The notes beneath the pieces are model-generated. The model was given only the letters and a program-made list of their open reading frames with translations, ran no database searches and had not been told where the DNA came from. Positions 11,871-37,294 of a stretch of DNA of 64,000 nucleotides are shown here, in pieces (the stretch's first letter is position 1; each line of letters opens with the position of its first letter). The DNA is from a virus, in the IMG/VR virus record IMGVR_UViG_3300027708_000022, positions 98,043 to 162,042 of that record. One strand, given 5' to 3'. Both the position numbers and the translations under genes were made by a program.

Positions 11871-12551
11871 TTATTTTGTTACAAACTCTGACGCCATCGG
11901 GAATACTTTGGCAATTACTTCAGCACAGGCTCTTGCGACCTGCATATGTTCTTTTTGCGTACCGTTACCTGAACGCACTTGAATAAAGTGTAGCCAACTT
12001 CTGAGAGTGCCATTAACATATAAACGACTTACTGTTAGACCTTCTGGTAATACAACACGAGCTTGTTCTTTTGCAATACCATGTGTTACTGCCCACTCAT
12101 AAGCTTTCTTTGAAGAATTGATTACGTCTTGTTGTAACCATTTCCATTGTTCTTTAAGATTTTCACCAAATAAAGTATCTTCAATCTCTACACTATTCTG
12201 ACGATTCTTTGTGTCTTGCAACCTTGCTTCTCTCAATACGAAATCCAAATCTTTGGTTGGGTCAGCATATCGTTGACTAAATTCCTGGAAGGAAAAACTT
12301 CGGTGTCTTAGTATTTGTCTAGCAATATCCCTGGTGGTGGTAACCTCTAGACACACACTCACAGTTTCCAATGGACTCCAATGAGCATTCTTTACCAAAT
12401 AATTGATAAGTTTTTCTGAGGTTTCTGTATTGAGTTGGTTACTAGGGTTTGATACACGAGCGCAGAATGCAACCAAGTCTTGCATATTTTCTAAGCCTTC
12501 ATTACGCATTTCTTCTGTTGGCTGACTATAGCTTATAATTTTCACGTTCAT
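11871..12551 (-). CDS. thyX: Flavin-dependent thymidylate synthase
   Basis: 226 residues from ATG 12551 (GGAA upstream; ATG 12563 adds four). The ThyX motif RHRSFSFQEFSQRY is exact to the RHRxxSxNxxSxRY consensus except Gln for Asn. TLRSWLHFIQVR holds the second FAD/dUMP-binding stretch. It methylates dUMP to dTMP using FADH2 and methylene-tetrahydrofolate. The gene follows primase with a 4-nt overlap and precedes nrdA, forming a nucleotide-synthesis block. Confidence 0.93.
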   Translation of the reverse strand: MNVKIISYSQPTEEMRNEGLENMQDLVAFCARVSNPSNQLNTETSEKLINYLVKNAHWSPLETVSVCLEVTTTRDIARQILRHRSFSFQEFSQRYADPTKDLDFVLREARLQDTKNRQNSVEIEDTLFGENLKEQWKWLQQDVINSSKKAYEWAVTHGIAKEQARVVLPEGLTVSRLYVNGTLRSWLHFIQVRSGNGTQKEHMQVARACAEVIAKVFPMASEFVTK

Positions 12552-13576
12552 ACTTTTTTCCATTGATTAAATTTTATTTGAGCTTGCAACCCTCTGAAGG
12601 TGTTACTACTTATAATACTTTCTATTTCATCCGGTGAAATACCAGACATTATCACCTCATTTATATCTTTACCTTGCAACGTATCAGGCCAAATCACAAT
12701 GTTATGTCCTAATGTAATTGCAGATTGCATCATTCTCACAATATCCTTGTTTCGGTTTTCATTGTCATAAATTAAAACCTTATTAACGGCAGAAATTTTA
12801 TCTGCTACTTGTATAAGGTTTGCATCAGCAGCTGCAAGACAGTTATTTATGAATAAACTATCTATAGGACCCTCTACAATCTTTACCGTATCATGTATAT
12901 TTAATCTATCCATACCGAATATAAGTTTATTATCACTAGTATCTGTCCGCACAGTAACATATCTCAGAGTCTTGTCCGAAGTCTCCAATGCACGGCCAGA
13001 CACAGCTACAAGACTGTTGTACTCATCATAGAACGGTATAACTAGTCGTGCATCATCAAACAATACTTTGCCGTGATCTGGTACCAAGGCATCAATAAAC
13101 TTCTTATAGTGTTGGGTGAACAATAATTTGCCATGTACACTATTGGGTATCTTTCTCTTAGTTAGGTATGTTAGGCAGAAATGACCAGTAGGCAACTTGT
13201 CACACCATTCGGCGTGTTCAAATGTTTTTTCTTTATCAACCTTATCAAATCTAGGTGATGGTACATTAAAGGTTGGTTGTTTGGCATTAGTATGACCACT
13301 ATTGCCAGACCTATATCGTTCAAGGATATATTCCTTGTATAGTGTACTATCAACGTGCTCAAGTAACTTACCTAGACTAGTGCCTAGGCCACAGTTTTTA
13401 CATGAGTAGAAGAGGTTATTGCCTTTTTTGTAGACGTAACCGCGAGCCTTGGTAAGGTTCTTGGTTGAGTCGCCACAAACAGGACAGGAAAAGTTCCAAA
13501 GGTAATCATTTTTACGTTTGAAATTACGGAGACGGTGGGACAAGAGTCCCACAAATTTTGTTTCAATATGTATCAT
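12548..13576 (-). CDS. 61: DNA primase (T4 gp61-like, DnaG-type)
   Basis: 342 residues. An N-terminal zinc finger (CPVCGD...CKNCG, about residues 31-63) is followed by a TOPRIM domain with IVEGPIDSLF and LIYDNENRNKD as the acidic metal-binding motifs. It lays RNA primers on the lagging strand together with the helicase at 37890-39287. It starts its own transcription unit: a TTGCAT-N17-TATACT promoter lies at 13583-13611. Confidence 0.88.
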   Translation of the reverse strand: MIHIETKFVGLLSHRLRNFKRKNDYLWNFSCPVCGDSTKNLTKARGYVYKKGNNLFYSCKNCGLGTSLGKLLEHVDSTLYKEYILERYRSGNSGHTNAKQPTFNVPSPRFDKVDKEKTFEHAEWCDKLPTGHFCLTYLTKRKIPNSVHGKLLFTQHYKKFIDALVPDHGKVLFDDARLVIPFYDEYNSLVAVSGRALETSDKTLRYVTVRTDTSDNKLIFGMDRLNIHDTVKIVEGPIDSLFINNCLAAADANLIQVADKISAVNKVLIYDNENRNKDIVRMMQSAITLGHNIVIWPDTLQGKDINEVIMSGISPDEIESIISSNTFRGLQAQIKFNQWKKV

Positions 13577-24098: not shown

Positions 24099-24745
24099 AA
24101 AGGGTATTTTTTGACAGTTATATTTTTATGTAATATGTTATGTAAGGAGAATAACCTTTCTACCACAAATGGAAAGTTTGGCACAAAATGGCCATTATAT
24201 TCTTTACCTTTCACATATATGTATTCGTTCAGAACCGGATCTTCTGCACATATCTTTAAACATTTATCAATAAAATTCATATAATTTGTCCAAAATTTAG
24301 AATTACCTACAAAATAATTACAAGTTGCAAACTCTTCGGCTGTGTACCTGTATTCTCCTACTCTAGTTTCAATACCAAGTTTTGGAAATAATCTGTTACA
24401 GAAATCTATCATTCCAGGACACCACACATCTCCTTGTGTCCAAATATTTGCATATTGATGTGGTAACTCTGGAAATGGGTCAATGTGATATACATCAAAT
24501 CCAGGATTCTCTAGCATCCAATTCTTAAACACCTGTGCAGGTACTCTTGTTTTGTCAAACCATAACCAAGACATAAGACCCCAATAAGCATCAGAGTCTT
24601 TGTGTTTCTCCAATAGTTTTTGCCACATTGGATATTCTCTCAAATGTGGCTGTGCGTTGATTGTATTGTCGTATGTTATGAATGCAGGATCTAAATGTGG
24701 TATTTGTTCCTGTCTATAGTATGCCTGATATATCTCTAGTTTCAT
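24095..24745 (-). CDS. Hypothetical protein of the glycan operon
   Basis: 216 residues, rich in aromatic residues, with LEIYQAYYRQEQIPHLDPAF near the start and HLREYPMWQKLLEKHKDSDAYWGLMSW. It resembles uncharacterised proteins seen beside glycosyltransferase genes; the opening and the position suggest a glycosyltransferase-like role, without a clear DxD motif. It overlaps both neighbours by 4 nt, so it is translated with the sugar enzymes. Confidence 0.55.
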   Translation of the reverse strand: MKLEIYQAYYRQEQIPHLDPAFITYDNTINAQPHLREYPMWQKLLEKHKDSDAYWGLMSWLWFDKTRVPAQVFKNWMLENPGFDVYHIDPFPELPHQYANIWTQGDVWCPGMIDFCNRLFPKLGIETRVGEYRYTAEEFATCNYFVGNSKFWTNYMNFIDKCLKICAEDPVLNEYIYVKGKEYNGHFVPNFPFVVERLFSLHNILHKNITVKKYPL

Positions 24746-25563
24746 TTTACCATATCTTCAACTATTTGTCTGATATCATACTTAGGAATGTAACCTAATG
24801 ACTTTAACTTATCGTTTTTCATCCACATTGACTTGACCTGCACCTTCTGATGGAACATAGGGATTTCGATTGGAACTAACTTCCCATCACCACCGATCAG
24901 GTCTTTTGCATACCCAATAATATCTTTGAAAAAGATTCTCTTGCCGTTGCCTATATTGTAGATAGTATCAGTCTCACCCATTTCAATTACCAAATTGATA
25001 GCAGCTGCAACATCTTCCACATGGATGTAATCACGATAAAGGTTACCGCCATCATATACATTCACATCACGACCAGCTTTCAATTCATTAATCATATGTT
25101 GTAGGGCATTCTTCTGTGGTGATGCCTTCTTGTCTCCTTGACCCGCTACATTAGCTAATCTAAGAATTCTATATTTAATATTGAATGTTTCACAATAAGA
25201 AATTAATAATTGTTCAGCACACCGTTTGGTGATAGAATAGAAACCTGTTGGGTTACAGTATGATGTTTCTTTTGCAGGCATCTCAGTATCACCATAGACA
25301 AACCATGAGCTGATGAAGTTGAAGATAATACCTGTATCTTTACATTGCTCAAGTACCCTTATCATAGTAGTTAGATTTGTATCAATATCAACATAAGGGT
25401 CAACCTTAACATTATAATTGGTTACAGTTGAAATGAAATACACAATTTCAGTTGCATCTAAGGACACTCTGTAATCGTTTCGGCCATTTACAATCATATC
25501 ATGTTTTGTTTTAACATACTCAGACCCAACAAACCCTTTACCACCAAATACTTGTATTGTCAT
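24742..25563 (-). CDS. NAD-dependent sugar epimerase/reductase
   Basis: 273 residues, extended short-chain dehydrogenase fold. GGKGFVGSEY is the nucleotide-binding loop, FISSWFVYGD carries the catalytic Ser, and YSITK is the YxxxK pair. NVYDGGNLYRDYIHVEDVA is typical of nucleotide-sugar epimerases. In an operon with an RfbH-like dehydrase it could act at C4, like abequose or paratose synthases. The substrate is an inference. Confidence 0.78.
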   Translation of the reverse strand: MTIQVFGGKGFVGSEYVKTKHDMIVNGRNDYRVSLDATEIVYFISTVTNYNVKVDPYVDIDTNLTTMIRVLEQCKDTGIIFNFISSWFVYGDTEMPAKETSYCNPTGFYSITKRCAEQLLISYCETFNIKYRILRLANVAGQGDKKASPQKNALQHMINELKAGRDVNVYDGGNLYRDYIHVEDVAAAINLVIEMGETDTIYNIGNGKRIFFKDIIGYAKDLIGGDGKLVPIEIPMFHQKVQVKSMWMKNDKLKSLGYIPKYDIRQIVEDMVK

Positions 25564-25745
25564 AATGCAGCTTTTAATTTTTCAATTTCTGAACTTGACA
25601 TATAAATTTTATTAGTATAAGTTTGAACCTTATCGTCCTTTTTCACCTCACGGCGAAATACCAATTCATATGTATCTGGTATATTAGTTAATTTGTTTTT
25701 TTCCAAAATTAACTTATAATCATTTCTTTCTATAATTACGGACAT
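25560..25745 (-). CDS. 61-residue hypothetical protein
   Basis: A small beta-rich protein (YKLILEKNKLTNIPDTYELVFRR in several strands, then a helix SSSEIEKLKAAL). It lies between the RfbH-like dehydrase and the epimerase and overlaps both (10 and 4 nt). Proteins of this kind are scattered in T4-like phages; no role is known. Confidence 0.5.
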   Translation of the reverse strand: MSVIIERNDYKLILEKNKLTNIPDTYELVFRREVKKDDKVQTYTNKIYMSSSEIEKLKAAL

Positions 25746-27016
25746 TTTTTTAATACCTCTTCGATATATTCAAAAACTTTATCATTCCAAAATGGTGGGC
25801 ATCCTAAGATAAACACATGAGACAATGCTTTGTTTGCTAGTGGATACTTATTGTAATCATCTAAATGTTTAAAACCTGGATGTAACAGAATATTACCAGC
25901 AAAATAATTGCGTGTTTGGATCTTATTAGCTTCTAAGTATGCAACTAATTTCTCTTTTTCTTGTTGTGTCTCACAAATGATTGGCACACCAAACCAAGAC
26001 GGATCAGATTGAGGTAAAGTATCTGCAATTCGAACATTCAAATATTTTTCTAACAATAGGGACAATCGAGCTTTATGTTCACGGCGTTTTGTATCAATAA
26101 AGTCCACTTTCTCCAACTGAGCAATACCAATTGCTCCTTGCATATCGAGTGGCTTTAGATTGTATCCTGCATGGGAGAAAATATACTTGTGGTCAATGAT
26201 ACCATCATATGTATCTAACCAACGGTCAAATCTATTACCACAAGTACCGCATGGCAATTGGTTATTTGAACCAACACAATAGCAATCTCTACCCCACCAG
26301 CTTAGTGAGCGCACAATGTCAATAAATTCTGGTGTATTGGATGAAACCATGCCACCCTCACCAGTTGAAATGTGGTGTGCAGGATAGAATGATGTTGACC
26401 AACAGAAGTACATATCGGTAAGAAGTTTACCATTCCATTTTGTACCCAATGAGTCACAGTTATCACCAACTAGAATCAAATTATGTCGTTCACATAATTC
26501 TCTAATAAAATCCATGTCAGGTGGATTAGCAAGAACAGGTGATACAACAATAGCCTTTGTTCTAGGTGTAATCTTTGCTTCAATTAGATTAACATCAAAG
26601 TTTAGTGTATCAAACTCAATATCAACGAATACAGGTTTAAGATTGTTCTGCATCAATGGTGCAATCGTTGTTGGGAAACCAACTGGTGATACAATCACCT
26701 CATCATTATCTTGCCATTTGAAATGCTTCTTCAATGCACCAATCATCACCAAGTTGGCTGAACTACCTGAGTTGACCATGTGTGATTGTTTTACATTATA
26801 TTTCTTTGAGAATCTAATTTGAAATTTCTCAACATTCTCGCCAGCAGAAATCCATTTGCCAGTTAGGAACGCCTTGAGAGATAACTCCATCTCCCTTTCG
26901 TCCCACAATTGACCTGAGTACATGACATAATCTTCACCGGGTTTGAAGTTGTCATAGTTCTGTAGGTACTTTGGTTTAGCCAGTTTTGCTAATTCTTTAA
27001 TTTTCTCGTCAATCAT
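25736..27016 (-). CDS. RfbH-type PMP/[2Fe-2S] sugar 3-dehydrase
   Basis: 426 residues of the DegT/DnrJ/EryC1/StrS fold. The internal-aldimine Lys is replaced by His: SFYPAHHISTGEGG (His about 214), the hallmark of C3 dehydrases that use PMP. Four Cys in a cluster (about 245, 247, 256, 259; WGRDCYC...PCGTCG) match the [2Fe-2S] site of CDP-4-keto-6-deoxyglucose 3-dehydrase (E1, RfbH). It would remove the C3 hydroxyl on the way to a 3,6-dideoxyhexose. No RfbI-type reductase was found in the window. Confidence 0.82.
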   Translation of the reverse strand: MIDEKIKELAKLAKPKYLQNYDNFKPGEDYVMYSGQLWDEREMELSLKAFLTGKWISAGENVEKFQIRFSKKYNVKQSHMVNSGSSANLVMIGALKKHFKWQDNDEVIVSPVGFPTTIAPLMQNNLKPVFVDIEFDTLNFDVNLIEAKITPRTKAIVVSPVLANPPDMDFIRELCERHNLILVGDNCDSLGTKWNGKLLTDMYFCWSTSFYPAHHISTGEGGMVSSNTPEFIDIVRSLSWWGRDCYCVGSNNQLPCGTCGNRFDRWLDTYDGIIDHKYIFSHAGYNLKPLDMQGAIGIAQLEKVDFIDTKRREHKARLSLLLEKYLNVRIADTLPQSDPSWFGVPIICETQQEKEKLVAYLEANKIQTRNYFAGNILLHPGFKHLDDYNKYPLANKALSHVFILGCPPFWNDKVFEYIEEVLKKCP

Positions 27017-27729
27017 TAATATCTCTCAATTTGGCCATTGCCTGCCAAAACCCCCTCACAATATAAATTATCAAATTGTACCAAGTATTCTTTCTTAATG
27101 TTACCAAAATGTGCGTGTTCAGTATCCACACCAAACTTATTGATAGTATTATATATCTGTGGTAATGTGTGTAAGTAATCATCCATTAACGATACACAGA
27201 ACGAATACATTCTTGTAATCAATAAGTGGTCACAAGAAGATTCAATTTGTTTATTTGGTGGCAACCAAGACGGAATAGATTTTTTAAATACATACTTACC
27301 ATACAAGTCATCATATGCCTTTGGATCATATCCTTCAAGTATATTTGTTCTACCTGACAATTTGAATACTCTACGAACACCAGCCATCATTTGCTGTAAT
27401 TCAGGATGAAATTTCAAAGAATTTAAAGTTTTAAACAATAACACAATTTCGGCTTGGGATTTAAGACCTGCATTTGCAAGAGACATTGAATCTTCATTAC
27501 CAAAAAGATTGATAAATTTATCAGAATATTGGCAAACACTAGCCATTGTGGCTTCGTCAACCATTCTTGATGAGGCATCTACTAATAAAATTATAGCAGA
27601 AGGTACACGTTTGCGTAAAGATTTTAATCCTAAAATTGTTTGATTCAATCTTGCTTCATCATCAATAACACCAATGCTAGTTTTTAGGGCGGAGGTTACG
27701 ATGAACAAGTCTCTATTAGGTATAATCAT
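27016..27729 (-). CDS. Hypothetical protein of the glycan operon
   Basis: 237 residues from ATG 27729, chosen because it gives the 4-nt ATGA overlap usual here; ATG 27738 is possible. It begins MIIPNRDLFIVTSALKT with a beta-alpha-beta start (SAIILLVDAS), and the layout resembles a glycosyltransferase or WavE-like fold without a clear DxD. Its position between the SDR and RfbH-like genes suggests a role in surface glycan assembly. Confidence 0.55.
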   Translation of the reverse strand: MIIPNRDLFIVTSALKTSIGVIDDEARLNQTILGLKSLRKRVPSAIILLVDASSRMVDEATMASVCQYSDKFINLFGNEDSMSLANAGLKSQAEIVLLFKTLNSLKFHPELQQMMAGVRRVFKLSGRTNILEGYDPKAYDDLYGKYVFKKSIPSWLPPNKQIESSCDHLLITRMYSFCVSLMDDYLHTLPQIYNTINKFGVDTEHAHFGNIKKEYLVQFDNLYCEGVLAGNGQIERY

Positions 27730-28397
27730 TTGTGCCATTCCGTATCAGGAAACATCTTAATCGTTTTATATTCAATGTTGAATTTACTATTATACACGAA
27801 GTCAATCAATTTTACAAGTTCTATTGGTGAAATTGCCTTACTTACATCACCACATGGGTAAGGTATATCTCTATTCCATAATGGTGTATCAATACCGCCT
27901 GGATGAATACTTGTTACTTTGATTCCTCTTGGTCGCAATTCTTGGCCAAGAACACCAGCAAATCCTGTAAGTCCGTGCTTAGAAGAACAGTATGCTGATT
28001 GATTCTCCAGTTCTTCAAGACCTGCAACTGAATTAATAAAGAAGATACGACTGCCTTTTTTCATCTTCTGCAAAGCAAATTTAGTCACATACATAGCTCC
28101 TTTAAGATTGATATCAATCATATCATCAATTTCATCAATACTAGTTTGTGAAAATGGTTTCATCTTAAACACAGCTGCATTGTTAACTAGAATGTCAATA
28201 TTGCCAATCTGTTCAAAAACAACACTTAGTAAATATGGATTGGTGATATCAACCTCAAAGTGTTTATAGTTTTCAAATTGAAATATAGATTCACCACGAG
28301 CAAAACCAATTACAGTCCATCCCTTCTCAATGTAATCATGTGCGATTGCTGCACCAACACCACTGGTTGTACCAGTAATCAAAATAGTCTTATTCAT
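27726..28397 (-). CDS. Short-chain dehydrogenase/reductase
   Basis: 223 residues from ATG 28397 (the longer frame starts with TTG). TGTTSGVG is the cofactor loop, NNAA the structural motif, and NSVAG with YCSSK the catalytic Ser and YxxxK. The lack of an insert suggests a simple NAD(P)H keto-reductase. It directly follows the cyclase gene (8-nt overlap), so reduction or oxidation of a cyclitol ketone is a reasonable guess. Confidence 0.82.
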   Translation of the reverse strand: MNKTILITGTTSGVGAAIAHDYIEKGWTVIGFARGESIFQFENYKHFEVDITNPYLLSVVFEQIGNIDILVNNAAVFKMKPFSQTSIDEIDDMIDINLKGAMYVTKFALQKMKKGSRIFFINSVAGLEELENQSAYCSSKHGLTGFAGVLGQELRPRGIKVTSIHPGGIDTPLWNRDIPYPCGDVSKAISPIELVKLIDFVYNSKFNIEYKTIKMFPDTEWHK

Positions 28398-29532
28398 AGT
28401 TAACTTCTTCAAACAAATCTGAAGCTTTCTTTATCTCTTCATCGGTTACATCATTCAGTATCATATAGTTACCAATGCCAACAGGTACAGGTAAGTATTG
28501 ATTACCGTTTCGATGTTTCATTGTATCAGATAATGATTTTTTAAGCAAGTCAAAATTACAGAAATCTTTATGAAATACAGGCAATTTTAAACTGTGTGCT
28601 GTCTTAAAGATTCTTTCTAAGGTTTCAGTATCAATATAACCACGAACATTAGCAAGACAAGAACTCAACAGGCAATCTAGCACAACAGCCTCACCATGCT
28701 GTAATGTGTCCATATTCTGCATTTCAATAATAGGACTAAATGAATGACCAAAGTCAACGCATCGGTCTAGTTTTTTCTCCCATAGATTTGGTGCTAATTC
28801 TTCAATCATGCCTGTAATGGCAGAATTGATTACTCGAACTGGTACGGCACCAAACTGGAATTTCTCGGTGATTAATTGCTCTGCGCTTGTCTCTAGCAAC
28901 TCAAACAATTCTTTGTCTTTGATTACTGCAAGTTTAAATATCTCCGCAATACCATTAACAATGTTTCTCTCATCTTGTGTAGCAATAAACTTCTTATCCA
29001 ATAATGTTGCAATTGGTGGGTAATATGCACCTATACGATTTCTACGACCAAAGTGGTTAGCCGCAACTTTAACACCAACCGAAGCATCTACAATGGCCAA
29101 TAGTGTAGTTGGCACCTTAACATAAGGAATGCCTCTACGATAGATTGAGCAACAGAAACCAACCAAGTCTAACAGAACACCACCGCCAATAACGATGATG
29201 GCTTCTCTACGCAAAACACCAACTCTTTCAAAGAAACCTAAAATCTGGTCGGTATGATACCAATCTTTGTTTTCTTCTGTGGCATCAACCACAAACAATT
29301 CTAATTCTACCTGAAATGTTTTGAAGTATGTTTCTAATTGTTCGCCATATAGTTTATATACAGTTTCATCTATGACAACCACTCTGCGATTGGACTCACC
29401 AAAACTCAACAGGTCGTGATTGTTTACATTGAATACATCACTAGAGTACTTTAATGTAAACTCAATTGGTAGTTCGGCCTTGACAGACCATGTGCGTTTG
29501 TAATTATCAAATTTCGTTAATACATTTTCCAT
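28390..29532 (-). CDS. Sugar phosphate cyclase, 2-epi-5-epi-valiolone synthase type
   Basis: 380 residues of the DHQ-synthase superfamily. Diagnostic stretches follow the sedoheptulose-7-phosphate cyclase branch rather than DHQ synthase: RRGIPYVKVPTTL (132-144), VDASVGVK (148-155), NHFGRRNRIGAYYPP (159-173), NGIAEIFKLA (193-202, DHQS has KYG), DFGHSFSP (260-267), QHGEAVVLD (278-286) and KHRNGNQYLPVPVGIG (339-354). Glu197, His263 and His279 are the likely metal ligands. It would cyclise sedoheptulose 7-phosphate to a C7 cyclitol. Confidence 0.85.
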   Translation of the reverse strand: MENVLTKFDNYKRTWSVKAELPIEFTLKYSSDVFNVNNHDLLSFGESNRRVVVIDETVYKLYGEQLETYFKTFQVELELFVVDATEENKDWYHTDQILGFFERVGVLRREAIIVIGGGVLLDLVGFCCSIYRRGIPYVKVPTTLLAIVDASVGVKVAANHFGRRNRIGAYYPPIATLLDKKFIATQDERNIVNGIAEIFKLAVIKDKELFELLETSAEQLITEKFQFGAVPVRVINSAITGMIEELAPNLWEKKLDRCVDFGHSFSPIIEMQNMDTLQHGEAVVLDCLLSSCLANVRGYIDTETLERIFKTAHSLKLPVFHKDFCNFDLLKKSLSDTMKHRNGNQYLPVPVGIGNYMILNDVTDEEIKKASDLFEEVNYE

Positions 29533-30494
29533 TATTTAAAAACCTTACTCAATAAATGGCAAGCATGGACATAGAAGAACATTGCCTTCTCTGTTTCACC
29601 CGCTGCACATTTGAATGGCAACATACGAATGAATTGTGTTGCCTCTAATACATCAATTGTCTTTTTCTCCCATGGGTCAATTCTATCTTCAAATAGTTTA
29701 TTAAATACAATAAAATTATTTGGAATACTACCGTGATATCCCACCGATGGGCCAACAACTTTTACTCCTCGGTCAGTAATATAACCATAATGACTTCTTG
29801 AGCATTGTAACACCTGTGAATAATCTAAGAGGCGAGAATCAAGACAACTTTCTTCATAAGGATCAATAAACATCACTCTATCCTCTTTAAAGGAATACAT
29901 CATGTTTTCAAGAGTTGGATTACCATGGATAGTTTCTTCTGTTGTAAGATTTAGCTGACTAAAGAAGTTCTCCAGTTCTGGCATAAAGTTCTGAATGCCA
30001 TGTGTAATCTGGCCATTATATTCAAAAGAATCCAACAAACCAGATTCGTAGAAATCAGAAAACTTTTGGTACTTAAAGGCATCATATAGTTTCTGTAAAA
30101 CTTCTTCTTTGAAGTATAATGAACCTGCACCCTTAATTGGCAAATACATTTTACTATGTAGGCTATCAAATGAACACCATACAGATTCGTTTATTTTTTC
30201 TATAACATCATGTGTTATAGTATCTTCGGTCAAAATGGTTTTAATATCTCTATACCCTTCTAGGTATTCAATATCAAAATAAGCCGTTTCTTCTCTCATG
30301 CCAACACGCAAGACTTTAGGAAATAGTCCTGTTGCTTCAAATCTTTGTAGTTTCTTTAATTGAGAATACCAACGAACATAACCATATTCACGATTATCTT
30401 TTGTGCTAACAGATTTACGAATAAATTTATTAGCACCACCTTCATGTAAAGAGGTGTTACTCAAAGAGCCACCTTTCAATTTAGTAATCTTCAT
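29532..30494 (-). CDS. Aminoglycoside/choline-kinase-fold protein with altered catalytic motif
   Basis: 320 residues. The Brenner motif reads HGNPTLEN (190-197) where active kinases have HGDxxxxN, and FIDPYEES (209-216) supplies the metal-binding Asp. The N-terminal nucleotide-binding lobe is divergent. Placed between the cyclase and the nucleotidyltransferase, it is the natural candidate for phosphorylating a cyclitol, but the Asp-to-Asn change makes activity uncertain. Confidence 0.7.
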   Translation of the reverse strand: MKITKLKGGSLSNTSLHEGGANKFIRKSVSTKDNREYGYVRWYSQLKKLQRFEATGLFPKVLRVGMREETAYFDIEYLEGYRDIKTILTEDTITHDVIEKINESVWCSFDSLHSKMYLPIKGAGSLYFKEEVLQKLYDAFKYQKFSDFYESGLLDSFEYNGQITHGIQNFMPELENFFSQLNLTTEETIHGNPTLENMMYSFKEDRVMFIDPYEESCLDSRLLDYSQVLQCSRSHYGYITDRGVKVVGPSVGYHGSIPNNFIVFNKLFEDRIDPWEKKTIDVLEATQFIRMLPFKCAAGETEKAMFFYVHACHLLSKVFK

Positions 30495-31213
30495 CTTGCC
30501 TTTAAACTCTGTTTAGTGACTTCAAGACCATATTCTTGTGGACTACCAAGGACAATTGTTTCATATTCATTATTCAGTTCATTTAGACCAATAGATTCAC
30601 CATTCCTAATCATGTGGCCTAGTACATTCGCAATATACAATTCTTTACCTGTGAATCCATTTAATACTAATTCGTAATTATCTTCATATATTTCTGCATT
30701 ACGAAAACCATATAGGCCTGAACTTGCAAAAGGAGAGATAGCGCACTTCTCAACAATCTCGGTTACAATTCCATCTTTTGACCTAACATACGAATACTTT
30801 GGGTTGGTAGCAACAAATACATCAACATAAGCATGAGCCATGTAGCTTTCAATTTCTTTAAAATTTCTACCCGTAAGAATTGTATCAGCATTATGAACAA
30901 AGAATGGTTGTTTTTTGTTTTTAATTAATGAAGCACCGATGTATGCGGTGTGAGCTTGTCCATTAGTATCGCCGATATAATGGATGTTATCTTCTGTTAG
31001 TCCAAGTGGTTTAATTGTTTCAACCAACTCTTTCTTAAAATACACATCACGTTTATTGGCCAATAAAATAACCTCATCAAACTTTCCTAATTCTTTAAGA
31101 ATGTTATGAATGATTGTTTCTTCACCCCAAGGTAACAGATATTTTGGAATATCAAAACCAACATCATGGAATCTGGTGTTTAAACCAGCCATACAAATTA
31201 CTAGCGCACCCAT
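30491..31213 (-). CDS. Sugar/cyclitol-1-phosphate nucleotidyltransferase
   Basis: 240 residues. CMAGLNTRF...IPKYLLPW is the nucleotide-binding signature of the NTP-transferase family, FFVHNADTIL provides the metal-binding Asp and SSGLYGFRN is a typical later motif. It would activate a phosphorylated sugar or cyclitol with an NTP for transfer. The neighbouring cyclase and kinase-fold genes suggest an NDP-cyclitol as in validamycin-type pathways. Confidence 0.75.
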   Translation of the reverse strand: MGALVICMAGLNTRFHDVGFDIPKYLLPWGEETIIHNILKELGKFDEVILLANKRDVYFKKELVETIKPLGLTEDNIHYIGDTNGQAHTAYIGASLIKNKKQPFFVHNADTILTGRNFKEIESYMAHAYVDVFVATNPKYSYVRSKDGIVTEIVEKCAISPFASSGLYGFRNAEIYEDNYELVLNGFTGKELYIANVLGHMIRNGESIGLNELNNEYETIVLGSPQEYGLEVTKQSLKAR

Positions 31214-31908
31214 TTTTCAAAATCCTCACGAATTAAACTATGCCATGTTCCATTATTTTCACCAGGTGGAAATGGATGATTCATATTACAGTAAACCAAA
31301 TTCTCACCAACAAAACCTTTTTCTTTCCAATTGGCACTCATCATATCTTCACACATCATCTGTACACCACTTTCATAGAATCTATCCAAGTGTGTGAATG
31401 TGTCAGCATACTTATCCATATTTTCTGAAGATGAGAATGCGAACTGGTCATTACCAAAATCACGATTAGGAACTTGCCTGCAATTTGGAATATAAAGTTT
31501 AGTGCTATCTAGTTCTGCAAATGGAATTTTAACATTGATTGCAAAATCAAAACGAGAACGAATAACCCAATCAAATTTCATATCGTATAGGATTTCAAAT
31601 TCTGATTTTAGCCAATTGCATTTCTTAATGCTATACAATTGATTCCATGTTGCACGAGCTGGTTCTTTTACTTTCCAGTTTGGTTGTGGTGGTGGAACAT
31701 TGGTGTACTTTGATAAATCATTTGTTAGTGCTGGATCTACTTGCCACGATCTAGCTTCATATTGAATTATAGCCTCATGTGTCTGTTCACTTTCCCATGT
31801 GTGAATAAACACCTCAACATCATGGTCTTTTAATAGATTCTCATAAACAAACTCATAGCCTTGTTTAAAGCTACGAGGTTGTCCTGAAAGGCATAGTGCT
31901 ATCTTCAT
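31201..31908 (-). CDS. Glycosyltransferase-like protein
   Basis: 235 residues starting MKIALCLSGQPRSFKQGYEF, an opening I associate with a phage and bacterial glycosyltransferase-like family; IRSRFDFAI is the candidate metal-binding region. VGENLVYCNMNHPFPPGEN appears near the end. The gene overlaps the nucleotidyltransferase by 13 nt. The acceptor is unknown. Confidence 0.65.
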   Translation of the reverse strand: MKIALCLSGQPRSFKQGYEFVYENLLKDHDVEVFIHTWESEQTHEAIIQYEARSWQVDPALTNDLSKYTNVPPPQPNWKVKEPARATWNQLYSIKKCNWLKSEFEILYDMKFDWVIRSRFDFAINVKIPFAELDSTKLYIPNCRQVPNRDFGNDQFAFSSSENMDKYADTFTHLDRFYESGVQMMCEDMMSANWKEKGFVGENLVYCNMNHPFPPGENNGTWHSLIREDFEKWVR

Positions 31909-32576
31909 AAATCTTTTCCAATATTTTCCTTATTATCTGTAATACCAAACTCTTTATAGGCTTCTTTCTCAAAGACCACAATACTATTGTAAAAAGAAAC
32001 ACTATTCAAACCTTTATACCTTTCAAGGGTTTGTGGCAGAATATAGTTATTACCTTGAAAGTGTTGTTGATTCATAGAGTCGGTAACCTTCTTTGCGTGT
32101 TCAAGAAAAGTTTGTGGCTCTTTGTAACCACCACCCCAATTCTGCCAATAACTTGTATGAGTATCTTCAACAGCAAAGACACCATCATCATTCAAATGTG
32201 GGAACATACAGTTTAATGTGGTAATTTGTTGGTTCATTGTGTGACCACCATCATCAATAATGATATCAAAGGTACCATACTCTTCTGCAAATTGTTTCCA
32301 GAATTCTGGTGAAGATTGGTCACCCATAATGATCTGTACATCACCATCATACTTATAATTTAAGCATTCAGGATTAACATCAACAGCAATTACCGATGTG
32401 TCTTTACCAAAGTACTTCAACCACATTTCAATTGAACCACCACCTAAAACTCCAATCTCCAGAATTCTTGGTGATTTATCAACAAACTTGTTAAGGTGTT
32501 TTTCATACACATCAAAGTAACCAGACCACTTAGTCGAACCTTTCTCTAGGTTCCAAAAGATTTCTTTCAATTTCAT
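31905..32576 (-). CDS. SAM-dependent sugar methyltransferase
   Basis: 223 residues from ATG 32576 (ATGA overlap). ILEIGVLGGGSIEMW is motif I of class I SAM methyltransferases, VIAVDVNPEC binds the cofactor ribose, and FDIIIDDGGHTMNQQ with FAVEDTHTSYW matches sugar O-methyltransferases such as those of the MycE/CmcI group. It probably O-methylates a sugar made by this operon. Confidence 0.8.
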   Translation of the reverse strand: MKLKEIFWNLEKGSTKWSGYFDVYEKHLNKFVDKSPRILEIGVLGGGSIEMWLKYFGKDTSVIAVDVNPECLNYKYDGDVQIIMGDQSSPEFWKQFAEEYGTFDIIIDDGGHTMNQQITTLNCMFPHLNDDGVFAVEDTHTSYWQNWGGGYKEPQTFLEHAKKVTDSMNQQHFQGNNYILPQTLERYKGLNSVSFYNSIVVFEKEAYKEFGITDNKENIGKDL

Positions 32577-33601
32577 CTGAGCCATTTATCATTCTCCAAA
32601 GACCATTGAACCATACCTTCAATTCTTTCACGCAATGAAATATTTGGCTTCCAACCTAAAGATTCCATATAAGAGCCAGACAAAGCGTAGCGTAAATCAT
32701 GGCCAGGTCTGGATGAATGAAAATCAACCATCTCATATTTTAACTCCTTACCTTGTGCTGCAGCAATTAACCTAGCTAATTCTAGGTTATCAATCTCATC
32801 GGGACCAACAATATTAAATTTAGGAATCTTAGCACCACCAAAATCAGGCACTCTTGCATAATCTTTTGGTAGATTAAGAATGAACATAAGACCGTCTGAA
32901 ACATCTTTAGCATGAACATAGTGGCGTGAACCAGCTTTTGTTTTAGTTGCATCAGAATGGATGGTTAGTGTAAGACCATCACGAGCATAACGAATGGCTT
33001 TAGGAATAAACTTCTCAGGATGCTGACGTTCACCAAATACATTCATCGTATGAGTAACAATAATTGGCATCTTGTAAGTGTTTTCAAATGCTACACACAT
33101 CTCCTCACCGGCTGCCTTTGATGCTGAGTATGGGTTAGTTGCGTTGTAACGATCACGTTCGGTGTAATCAACACCAGCTGGTGCAGGACCAAATACCTCA
33201 TCTGTACTAAAGTATACAAACTTCTCCAGATTAGGAAGTGTACGAGCAAACTGTAATAGGTTAACTGTACCAACTACGTTATCTTGTACAAACTCCATTG
33301 GGAATTCAATAGAACGGTCAACGTGTGAACCTGCTGCAAGATGTAGAACCAATTGACAATCACCAATCAAACCAGAAGTCTGTGGGTTAATCTCAGCTCT
33401 TAAATCGTGAAATACAATCTCAACACGCTTCTTGGTATCACGATCATATTTCTTCATAATATCTTCAAGGCGATTTAGATTGCCAGAGAAATCAAGTCGA
33501 TCAAGTGACACAATTGTCCAGTCAGTTTGGTCAAGGATTGTTTCAATCAAATGGTGTGCAATGAACCCTGCTCCACCGGTAATCAATACTCTTTTAGTCA
33601 T
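32573..33601 (-). CDS. NDP-glucose 4,6-dehydratase
   Basis: 342 residues, extended SDR fold. GGAGFIAHH is the cofactor loop, FSTDEVFGP carries the Thr-Asp-Glu triad specific to 4,6-dehydratases, and YSASKAA is the YxxxK pair. It makes the 4-keto-6-deoxy sugar that the RfbH-like dehydrase (25736-27016) would use. The nucleotide (dTDP, CDP or GDP) cannot be told from the sequence. Confidence 0.85.
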   Translation of the reverse strand: MTKRVLITGGAGFIAHHLIETILDQTDWTIVSLDRLDFSGNLNRLEDIMKKYDRDTKKRVEIVFHDLRAEINPQTSGLIGDCQLVLHLAAGSHVDRSIEFPMEFVQDNVVGTVNLLQFARTLPNLEKFVYFSTDEVFGPAPAGVDYTERDRYNATNPYSASKAAGEEMCVAFENTYKMPIIVTHTMNVFGERQHPEKFIPKAIRYARDGLTLTIHSDATKTKAGSRHYVHAKDVSDGLMFILNLPKDYARVPDFGGAKIPKFNIVGPDEIDNLELARLIAAAQGKELKYEMVDFHSSRPGHDLRYALSGSYMESLGWKPNISLRERIEGMVQWSLENDKWLR

Positions 33602-34436
33602 TATATGTTTCCTCTATACGTTCTTTCCATCCTGGTATCCGATCATATTGGTGAGCAATTGTAAAGACATTTCCTTTAGAAGTTGCAACTTCGCCGTTAA
33701 TCATAACAGGTGAAGGTTCTAATAGGAATGGACCGAATTGTTCTTTTTTACTTGGGTCTACCGTTGTGCCAAGTTGTGCTGCCCATCCAGATTCGGATGC
33801 CATATATGCCGATGTTGTGATATATGGATGTTGTGCAACCATAAAATTGAATGTCGATTGGTCAACAATAGGAATCGGGCGATTGATTGACATAACAAAA
33901 ATGTTTGCAGCCAAATCTCTCATACAAGTGGATCTACCAGCAAGCACACCCACATTGAAGATTACATTCTCTTTGAAAATATCATGGAAGAATGGACCAA
34001 ATGTTTCAATTAGATTTTGGTTACCCCAAGGTTCGTCTTTATAGTGCATACTCTCACTGGCAAACATCAGGTTCTTATCACCTAACCTTTCCTCAAGGAA
34101 TGTAATTGGGTTCTTTTGAAAGACAACATCCTTCACATCGGTTGTAATAACATACCGATATTCATTATTTCTTAGGTGATTGTAAATGTGGATGAATCGT
34201 TCAACGTGAACAGGTAAACTAGACTGATAAACATATCGTCTGTTTTCTTCATCCTTTTTTCCTGGCAAGATGACTTCAAAGCCAGATTGAACCAGTTTTT
34301 CGATAGTATCAAAACTGATGTTGAAGGCCACCATTGCTTTGTGACCTTCATAACCACAACGGTTAATAGAATTAACCCAATACTTTAATTTATTCCAATC
34401 GTAATTGGTACAGCATCCTATAATTAAATCTTTCAT
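33594..34436 (-). CDS. Glycosyltransferase-like protein (GT-A)
   Basis: 280 residues. It begins MKDLIIGCCTNYDW, with YVITTDVKDVVFQKNP as a candidate metal/nucleotide site and NVGVLAG downstream. It is the promoter-proximal gene of the 14-gene operon that runs to 23319. It lies after a 110-nt gap containing a strong hairpin (34461-34497). Confidence 0.65.
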   Translation of the reverse strand: MKDLIIGCCTNYDWNKLKYWVNSINRCGYEGHKAMVAFNISFDTIEKLVQSGFEVILPGKKDEENRRYVYQSSLPVHVERFIHIYNHLRNNEYRYVITTDVKDVVFQKNPITFLEERLGDKNLMFASESMHYKDEPWGNQNLIETFGPFFHDIFKENVIFNVGVLAGRSTCMRDLAANIFVMSINRPIPIVDQSTFNFMVAQHPYITTSAYMASESGWAAQLGTTVDPSKKEQFGPFLLEPSPVMINGEVATSKGNVFTIAHQYDRIPGWKERIEETYND

Positions 34437-36022: not shown

Positions 36023-37294
36023 CTATTCAAAAAATGATTCTAAGGTAGATTTTTCTGTCTTTGGATATTCTGAATTTCCTCTACGAAATACCCAGACTGG
36101 TTCAATAAACACACCTTTATGCTCTGCCGTATTTGGTCTTGCCATCATACGCATACCTATCTTACCAACATAAAAAGAGTCTTTAAATGACTTAAAATGA
36201 TCGACCATGTCATCACATAGATTGAGTCGTTTAGACCCCTTGGTGCGCGGTTCTATGATGTTTATCATCATGTATCCGTTGTGTTTGATTGTCTTCCAAA
36301 CAGCCTCAGTTACCTTAAAGAAGAAGTCATATTTCCATCCTTTAAACGAATCATACCTTGCCCACGATTGATTATCTACCTTATCATTATCTGTACCATA
36401 TTTCTCTGTTTCAAAATATGGCGGAGAGGTAAAGTAGAAATCAAAGGTATCAACATACAAATCCCAATTCACATCTTCGGATGGTAAGTTCCATATCTTA
36501 ACTGTTTTTAAACCAATGCATTCAAAATAATCTTTCGTTTCAATTAACTGTGGTTTTCCACCAATCATTGTTTCATAAGCTATACATTGTTTTTTATACA
36601 CCTCAAATACATCAGGATTAGGATCACAACCAACGTACAACTTAGTTCCTGGTGTTCCATAGAAACCAGCAAGCCTATCACCCCAACCACAAGATGTATC
36701 TAATACATTTATTGCATTATGTTTTTCATATAATGCCTTTGCAACTGATGGTTTGAATTGTGTTGCGGTATATACACCAAGTCTAAAGGCTTCACGAAAA
36801 GAGATTTCATTTAAATCTTTATCTTGCATAACACCTGGACGCCAAAATGTCCAATTCATCTTACTCAGCTTGTCTTTATTATTCCATATGTCTGACGGTG
36901 CGAATGATGAATTCGATCCACACTTCATTCTATTTTTTTGTTGAAAATAATCACTTACTTTGTTGAAGAAATTAGATTTATCAATAACACCCAAAGGCAT
37001 ATCTGAATATTTGTATTTGTATTCATATCTTTCTTCAACAACATCAAAGTCTTTATATTGATCGTAATGCTGTCGGTGATAAAAATTTCTGAATGAGGTT
37101 TCTATCTCATGATATTCATATTCATTTGTTGGAAAAGGAATATTGTTTCGATGCACATATTCAGCCAAAGATTGACGAATATCATCTTTATCATATTGAG
37201 CTATAAACTCAAGCCAAGCAGAATTACTGATATTAGGAATGCCACGAGCATCACAGTTATCGGCAAAGTATTTTACTATTTCTTCTTTAATCAT
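36023..37294 (-). CDS. DNA methyltransferase-like protein (SPPYF), paralog 1
   Basis: 423 residues. VLDTSCGWGDRLAGFY is the SAM-binding motif I and FYFTSPPYFETEKYG the catalytic SPPY motif of amino-methyltransferases (N6-adenine or N4-cytosine). A large N-terminal helical region without known motifs precedes them. A second protein of the same architecture is encoded at 56512-58083. Roles could include protecting phage DNA from restriction; the target sequence is unknown. Confidence 0.75.
   Translation of the reverse strand: MIKEEIVKYFADNCDARGIPNISNSAWLEFIAQYDKDDIRQSLAEYVHRNNIPFPTNEYEYHEIETSFRNFYHRQHYDQYKDFDVVEERYEYKYKYSDMPLGVIDKSNFFNKVSDYFQQKNRMKCGSNSSFAPSDIWNNKDKLSKMNWTFWRPGVMQDKDLNEISFREAFRLGVYTATQFKPSVAKALYEKHNAINVLDTSCGWGDRLAGFYGTPGTKLYVGCDPNPDVFEVYKKQCIAYETMIGGKPQLIETKDYFECIGLKTVKIWNLPSEDVNWDLYVDTFDFYFTSPPYFETEKYGTDNDKVDNQSWARYDSFKGWKYDFFFKVTEAVWKTIKHNGYMMINIIEPRTKGSKRLNLCDDMVDHFKSFKDSFYVGKIGMRMMARPNTAEHKGVFIEPVWVFRRGNSEYPKTEKSTLESFFE

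Follow-up and report, generated by a model that had tools for sequence, protein, structure and literature searches.

What a bacteriophage would make with a sugar phosphate cyclase is the question raised by the locus described here. The window analysed, a stretch of 64,000 nucleotides (bases 98043-162042 of the 162-kb virus record IMGVR_UViG_3300027708_000022), encodes on its minus strand such a cyclase together with a short-chain dehydrogenase/reductase (SDR), a protein of predicted aminoglycoside phosphotransferase (APH) fold and a nucleotidyltransferase (Table 1), and an original prediction made from the sequence had read these genes as a C7-cyclitol pathway in a T4-like phage. Otherwise, such cyclitol chemistry is familiar from the pathways that make antibiotics and sunscreens. 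The T4-like label was borne out, the record being classified as a T4-like virus contig by its match to the Gp23 major capsid protein (3.8e-142). Our analysis suggests that the phage probably carries a compact pathway to a nucleotide-activated C7-cyclitol (a carba-sugar), which would be transferred onto a glycan by glycosyl transfer. The family and type of the cyclase and the linkage of the genes are well supported by sequence comparison; the order of the steps, the product, the nucleotide, the kinase activity and the acceptor are those that we infer.

Class of the cyclase

The open reading frame (ORF) of the cyclase holds the motifs VDASVGVK, NHFGRRNRIGAYYPP, DFGHSFSP and KHRNGNQ, which had been named as signatures of sedoheptulose-7-phosphate (SH7P) cyclases. 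Searched against the PDB with phmmer, the protein scored 306 bits with ValA, the 2-epi-5-epi-valiolone synthase (EEVS) of validamycin biosynthesis, compared with 225 bits for the desmethyl-4-deoxygadusol synthase (DDGS) of Anabaena (5tpr) and at most 132 bits for 3-dehydroquinate (DHQ) synthases; the 2-deoxy-scyllo-inosose synthase (DOIS) structure 2d2x reached 82 bits. A profile search gave 333-361 bits for EEVS-like proteins, ~224-282 bits for other cyanobacterial SH7P cyclases (mostly DDGS-like) and at most 181 bits for DHQ synthase-like ones. Although Pfam labels the cyclase DHQ_synthase (1.7e-32), this label is one of superfamily level, and with the curated aroB model the protein scored 216 bits against a cut-off of 305. 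The viral cyclases share ~40% identity with the bacterial EEVS that were found, and a dN/dS of 0.06-0.15 across homologues 64-94% identical indicates a selected gene.

For the comparison of residues, 22 viral rows were aligned with 5 EEVS-like, 13 DDGS-like, 4 EboD and 17 DHQ synthase-like proteins, with one DDGS and all EboD labelled by their gene neighbours, the remaining DDGS-like proteins by similarity to 5tpr and the EEVS-like proteins either by their NCBI annotation or by similarity. All three metal ligands of ValA (E213/H284/H300) are kept as invariant E197/H263/H279 in the viral cyclases. The sites that tell EEVS from DDGS were reportedly numbered D281/H360 in ValA by Kean et al. in 2014, and D260/H340 of the phage cyclase are their equivalents. 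Both residues are present in 22 of 22 viral rows and in three deeper ones, so that the comparison of active sites agrees with an assignment to EEVS. An active-site fingerprint of this kind has been described (PMC4426668). At 20 columns with a consistent EEVS/DDGS difference the commonest viral residue is EEVS-like in 17, and the viral cyclase has N249 and D260 where 17 of 17 DHQ synthase references have Asp and Asn.

In a maximum-likelihood tree with 25 viral rows, built without references for DOIS and 2-epi-valiolone synthase (EVS), the viral cyclases form one clade (support 100/98), which falls outside the DHQ synthases (100/100) and is sister to one cyanobacterial EEVS-like protein (99/95); EboD forms a separate clade as well (100/100). 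Grouping of the viral proteins with DDGS was rejected in the approximately unbiased (AU) test (p=0.005); grouping with EEVS was not (p=0.44). As EEVS did not emerge as a clade and a long-branch warning was issued by the tree program, the designation as EEVS type rests mainly on the residues. All in all, membership of the cyclase in the SH7P group, with EEVS type, is well supported. EboD is ruled out by score, residues and tree, and DDGS, for which Ala/Thr instead of D/H would be expected at the fingerprint, by these residues and the AU test; the phmmer score of 82 bits speaks against DOIS. The earlier statement that the enzyme is not a DHQ synthase is thus upheld by the missed aroB cut-off and by the tree.

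The cellular protein closest to the viral clade in the tree, a cyanobacterial EEVS-type cyclase (L137:8545-9816(+)), adjoins apparent methyltransferase and ATP-grasp genes, which suggests an EEVS-based mycosporine-like cluster.

Linkage of the module genes across viruses

In the window, the four genes are packed into a single minus-strand operon, the starts and stops of adjacent genes overlapping by 1-13 bases, and the cyclase has the neighbours that had been described for it. That these genes belong together now has support far beyond that of the original prediction, namely synteny over 73 distinct full-length cyclases from pooled viral contigs. With the cyclase as query, a first search of IMG/VR yielded 27 confirmed matches in viruses and a second one 98, while the APH-fold protein yielded 115 and the nucleotidyltransferase 101; counts per locus exceed those of distinct cyclases because one contig may be retrieved several times. 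Wherever its flanks could be assessed, the cyclase had the APH-fold gene as its immediate upstream neighbour (71 of 71 cases) and the SDR as its immediate downstream neighbour (also 71 of 71); the nucleotidyltransferase adjoins this trio in 60 cases. Scans begun from the APH-fold protein or the nucleotidyltransferase recovered the same module. The order is nucleotidyltransferase-APH-cyclase-SDR in some phages and APH-cyclase-SDR-nucleotidyltransferase in a deeper lineage (L298, L299, L323), which argues that the linkage is not that of one frozen locus; in a second lineage (L106-L119), the nucleotidyltransferase is ~25% identical and lies ~1.5-3 kb upstream. Purifying selection acts on each of the four genes. 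We regard this linkage across different phages as the strongest evidence for one shared pathway.

Carriers of the module comprise T4-like phages, one 394-kb contig resembling a jumbo phage, and others. By eye, the genes of the 394-kb contig read as jumbo-phage genes, and a check for the capsid of nucleocytoplasmic large DNA viruses (NCLDV), that is, for a giant eukaryotic virus, gave no match in this contig, with the control matching nowhere either. For the record containing the window, a cyanophage with psbA was considered and rejected, there being no psbA in the record; its DNA polymerase is only ~50% identical to those of cyanophages. In the L106-L119 lineage, a gene for a RuBisCO-like protein stands just upstream of the APH-cyclase-SDR genes in L119 (5940-7058(+); PF00016, 1.8e-32) and in several of L106-L118, likewise a small cupin-like ORF; a literature search for RuBisCO-like genes as phage auxiliary genes yielded no paper.

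Among 50,697 phage records no copy of the module cyclase was found, the matches being ~31% identical or less. Several of these matches carry an aroB annotation and are probably host DNA, and the phage-labelled records OR846630.1, OR848333.1 and AFYI01000003.1, which match DHQ synthase, look like bacterial DNA. No description of a phage EEVS was found in the open-access literature, subscription journals being mostly outside the search. In cells, SH7P cyclases were sought in ~990 genomes, leaving out Pseudomonadota and Actinomycetota chromosomes: among the genomes sampled from the phyla to which G002, G003 and G005 belong, none had a protein above the threshold, and cyanobacterial genomes yielded DDGS-like proteins and one EEVS-like protein. 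A scan of genome contigs with the cyclase returned weak, DHQ synthase-like relatives only. The APH-fold protein was found neither in the 292 cyanobacterial genomes searched nor in the plasmids.

The proposed pathway and its alternatives

In the proposed pathway, the cyclase would convert sedoheptulose 7-phosphate of the host into 2-epi-5-epi-valiolone or a close stereoisomer, and the SDR, whose catalytic residues are kept, with T9/G10/G14/G16, S124, Y137 and K141 invariant, would reduce or oxidise the cyclitol. The APH-fold protein would be the likeliest enzyme for phosphorylation of the cyclitol, and the nucleotidyltransferase would turn the cyclitol phosphate into a nucleoside diphosphate (NDP)-cyclitol. 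In the window's lineage, adjacent glycosyltransferases would attach the cyclitol to a glycan, either of a virion protein or at the surface of the infected cell, with a 3,6-dideoxyhexose from accessory genes being attached alongside. Two sets of observations weigh against this pathway, one at the phosphorylation step and one at the acceptor.

The first concerns the protein that had been called kinase-fold. It has no match among Pfam or NCBIfam families, but its AlphaFold2 (AF2) model (pLDDT 92) matches APH(2'')-Ia (E 5.7e-7, TM ~0.54) and methylthioribose (MTR) kinase in Foldseek, by which an APH fold is supported. Active APH-type kinases have their catalytic Asp in an HGD-x4-N loop. This Asp is replaced by Asn in every cyclitol-linked copy checked, the loop reading HGN(P/L/I)TLEN in 18 of 18 sequences of the alignment as well as in those deeper lineages that were checked, so that phosphorylation might be missing from the pathway or proceed differently. 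The fold thus stood and the kinase activity is open to doubt. There is some chance, if clearly a minor one, that the protein is a pseudokinase or has another activity (binding, regulation, another transfer) and that the nucleotidyltransferase uses a host-supplied sugar phosphate. HGN is invariant throughout the cyclitol-linked clade, as against HGD in gp311 of Bacillus phage G (L379), a distant homologue but the nearest one found in a phage; yet the second acidic residue (D211 of an ID motif) and N197 are invariant too, the gene is under purifying selection, and with an inactive protein the pathway would be left without a phosphorylation step.

The SH7P cyclase might also yield a different compound, either 2-epi-valiolone or a novel stereoisomer, which would still feed an NDP-cyclitol. 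At V156, A169 and N273, which are discriminating columns, most viral cyclases are unlike every EEVS reference, and the comparison set included no EVS reference, but both fingerprint residues are of EEVS type and we consider a different product rather unlikely.

The second set of observations concerns the acceptor. In L066, L068 and L069 the module is bordered by no homologue of the glycosyltransferases that lie near it in the window, which suggests that a glycan acceptor would not be general and leaves room for a soluble product. The end product could then be soluble, or a dead-end NDP-cyclitol, disturbing host sugar metabolism as an NDP-glucose mimic or valienamine-like inhibitor instead of serving decoration, and acarbose, itself EEVS-derived, is indeed an alpha-glucosidase inhibitor (PMC9200736). 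A free inhibitor would need no nucleotidyltransferase, however, and probable glycosyltransferases surround the module in the window's lineage, which makes this explanation quite improbable. That the cyclase is a DHQ synthase boosting aromatic amino acid synthesis, as the Pfam match and the reading given to prasinovirus cyclases (PMC5371798) might suggest, can be dismissed almost entirely, given that the score far under the aroB cut-off, the residues and the tree are all against it and that none of the shikimate genes was seen in the window's cluster.

Decoration of DNA, which had been suggested as well, was given up for a route via hydroxymethylcytosine: the thymidylate synthase/dCMP hydroxymethylase family (PF00303) has no match in the record, which may be incomplete. 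By eye, an ORF at 11871-12563(-) of the window resembles a ThyX-type thymidylate synthase, and one at 36023-37294(-), with SPPY and VLDTSCGWGDR motifs, probably encodes a methyltransferase of DNA or another nucleic acid.

Neighbouring genes and known systems

Next to the SDR lies a gene whose product, judged by its structure model, is a probable GT-A glycosyltransferase; it is kept in the T4-like lineage only. The RfbH-like, RmlB-like and epimerase genes occur only in the window and part of its relatives and are classed by this distribution as accessory to the module.

Table 1. Genes of the cyclitol module and its surroundings, with positions in the window.
Feature	Position	Strand	Basis
SH7P cyclase, EEVS type, 380 aa	28390..29532	-	ValA nearest solved relative; metal ligands E197/H263/H279; fingerprint D260/H340; trees
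APH-fold (aminoglycoside-phosphotransferase-like) protein, candidate cyclitol kinase, HGN instead of HGD	29532..30494	-	AF2 pLDDT 92; Foldseek; synteny; motif
Nucleotidyltransferase, NTP_transferase fold, 240 aa	30491..31213	-	PF00483 1.2e-9; profile match to 4evw 2.1e-36
Short-chain dehydrogenase/reductase, probable ATG start at 28400	27726..28412	-	PF00106 8.8e-42; residues; synteny
Probable GT-A fold glycosyltransferase	27016..27738	-	AF2 pLDDT 93; Foldseek to glycogenin and Kre2; in 61 loci
phrog_13607 protein, conserved neighbour, possible glycosyltransferase	31201..31908	-	phrog_13607 4.7e-27; synteny
Probable glycosyltransferase	33594..34436	-	phrog_1579 2.5e-7; synteny
RfbH/E1-like 3-dehydrase, accessory 3,6-dideoxyhexose gene, subset only	25736..27016	-	PRK15407 6.3e-111, under its cut-off; 3bcx 251 bits; SFYPAHH motif
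NAD-dependent epimerase/dehydratase, accessory	24742..25563	-	PF01370 3.8e-32
dTDP-glucose 4,6-dehydratase-like protein, accessory	32573..33601	-	TIGR01181 8.9e-70, under its cut-off
Methyltransferase, accessory	31905..32585	-	PF13578 7.1e-7; phrog_21658 8.2e-23

With known EEVS (ValA of validamycin, AcbC of acarbose, bacterial and vertebrate EEVS) the viral cyclases share the fold, the metal ligands, D281/H360 and a place in the EEVS/DDGS region of the tree that is not with DDGS; they differ in being phage-borne, in their identity of ~40% to the bacterial enzymes and in forming a clade of their own. The DDGS of the mycosporine/mycosporine-like amino acid (MAA) pathway is a related SH7P cyclase with Ala/Thr at the two fingerprint sites. 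EboD cyclases belong to the same sugar phosphate cyclase superfamily, and none of the ebo partner genes was seen at the viral module.

The validamycin and acarbose clusters (ValC/AcbM/AcbU, ValB/AcbR) likewise combine a cyclase, a redox enzyme, a candidate kinase and a nucleotidyltransferase. These clusters use ROK-family kinases, and the cyclitol nucleotidyltransferases of bacterial EEVS clusters are similar to ADP-glucose pyrophosphorylases (PMC9200736). The phage module, by contrast, has an APH-fold protein and a short, 4evw-like nucleotidyltransferase, with neither epimerase nor phosphatase in its conserved core. ROK kinases were present in the three bacterial EEVS clusters examined and absent from the conserved viral module. 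As a similar job is done by different families, the likeness is one of function and not of membership: the phage module would work like these pathways without being a member of them, so that the earlier term validamycin-type fits the function but, with kinase and nucleotidyltransferase families differing, not the homology. Going further, we would suggest tentatively, and at somewhat less than even confidence, that phages have their own route to an activated carba-sugar from enzyme families unlike the bacterial ones, including an APH-fold enzyme without the catalytic Asp, and that the resulting carba-sugar glycans could not be cleaved by host or defence enzymes.

Bacillus phage G (gp309-gp313) resembles the window's phage in having the APH-fold protein beside a nucleotidyltransferase and a glycosyltransferase; it differs in its canonical HGD and in a HAD phosphatase in between, which adjoins gp311, and no cyclase was found in it. 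Prasinoviruses, which are eukaryotic viruses unlike the carriers of the phage module, infect aquatic hosts and are also reported to have a sugar phosphate cyclase gene, described as a '3-dehydroquinate synthase' (PMC5371798, PMC2386258); in OtV5 it is listed near a dTDP-glucose dehydratase gene (PMC2386258). A prasinovirus-type cyclase was sought in viral contigs, and only the known module lineages were among the loci kept. The OtV5 gene 039f and its prasinovirus relatives may, judged from the literature, be SH7P cyclases too.

Few known pathways make carbocyclic sugar mimics, from which drugs such as acarbose result. If more than 70 distinct viral sequences encode a phage-specific pathway, viruses too would be makers of such mimics, and a new group of cyclitol enzymes would come into reach. 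Such a pathway would also make it possible to test concretely what phages add to their own surfaces or to host glycans. Virus genes named '3-dehydroquinate synthase' may be cyclitol synthases, and those of prasinoviruses may deserve re-examination.

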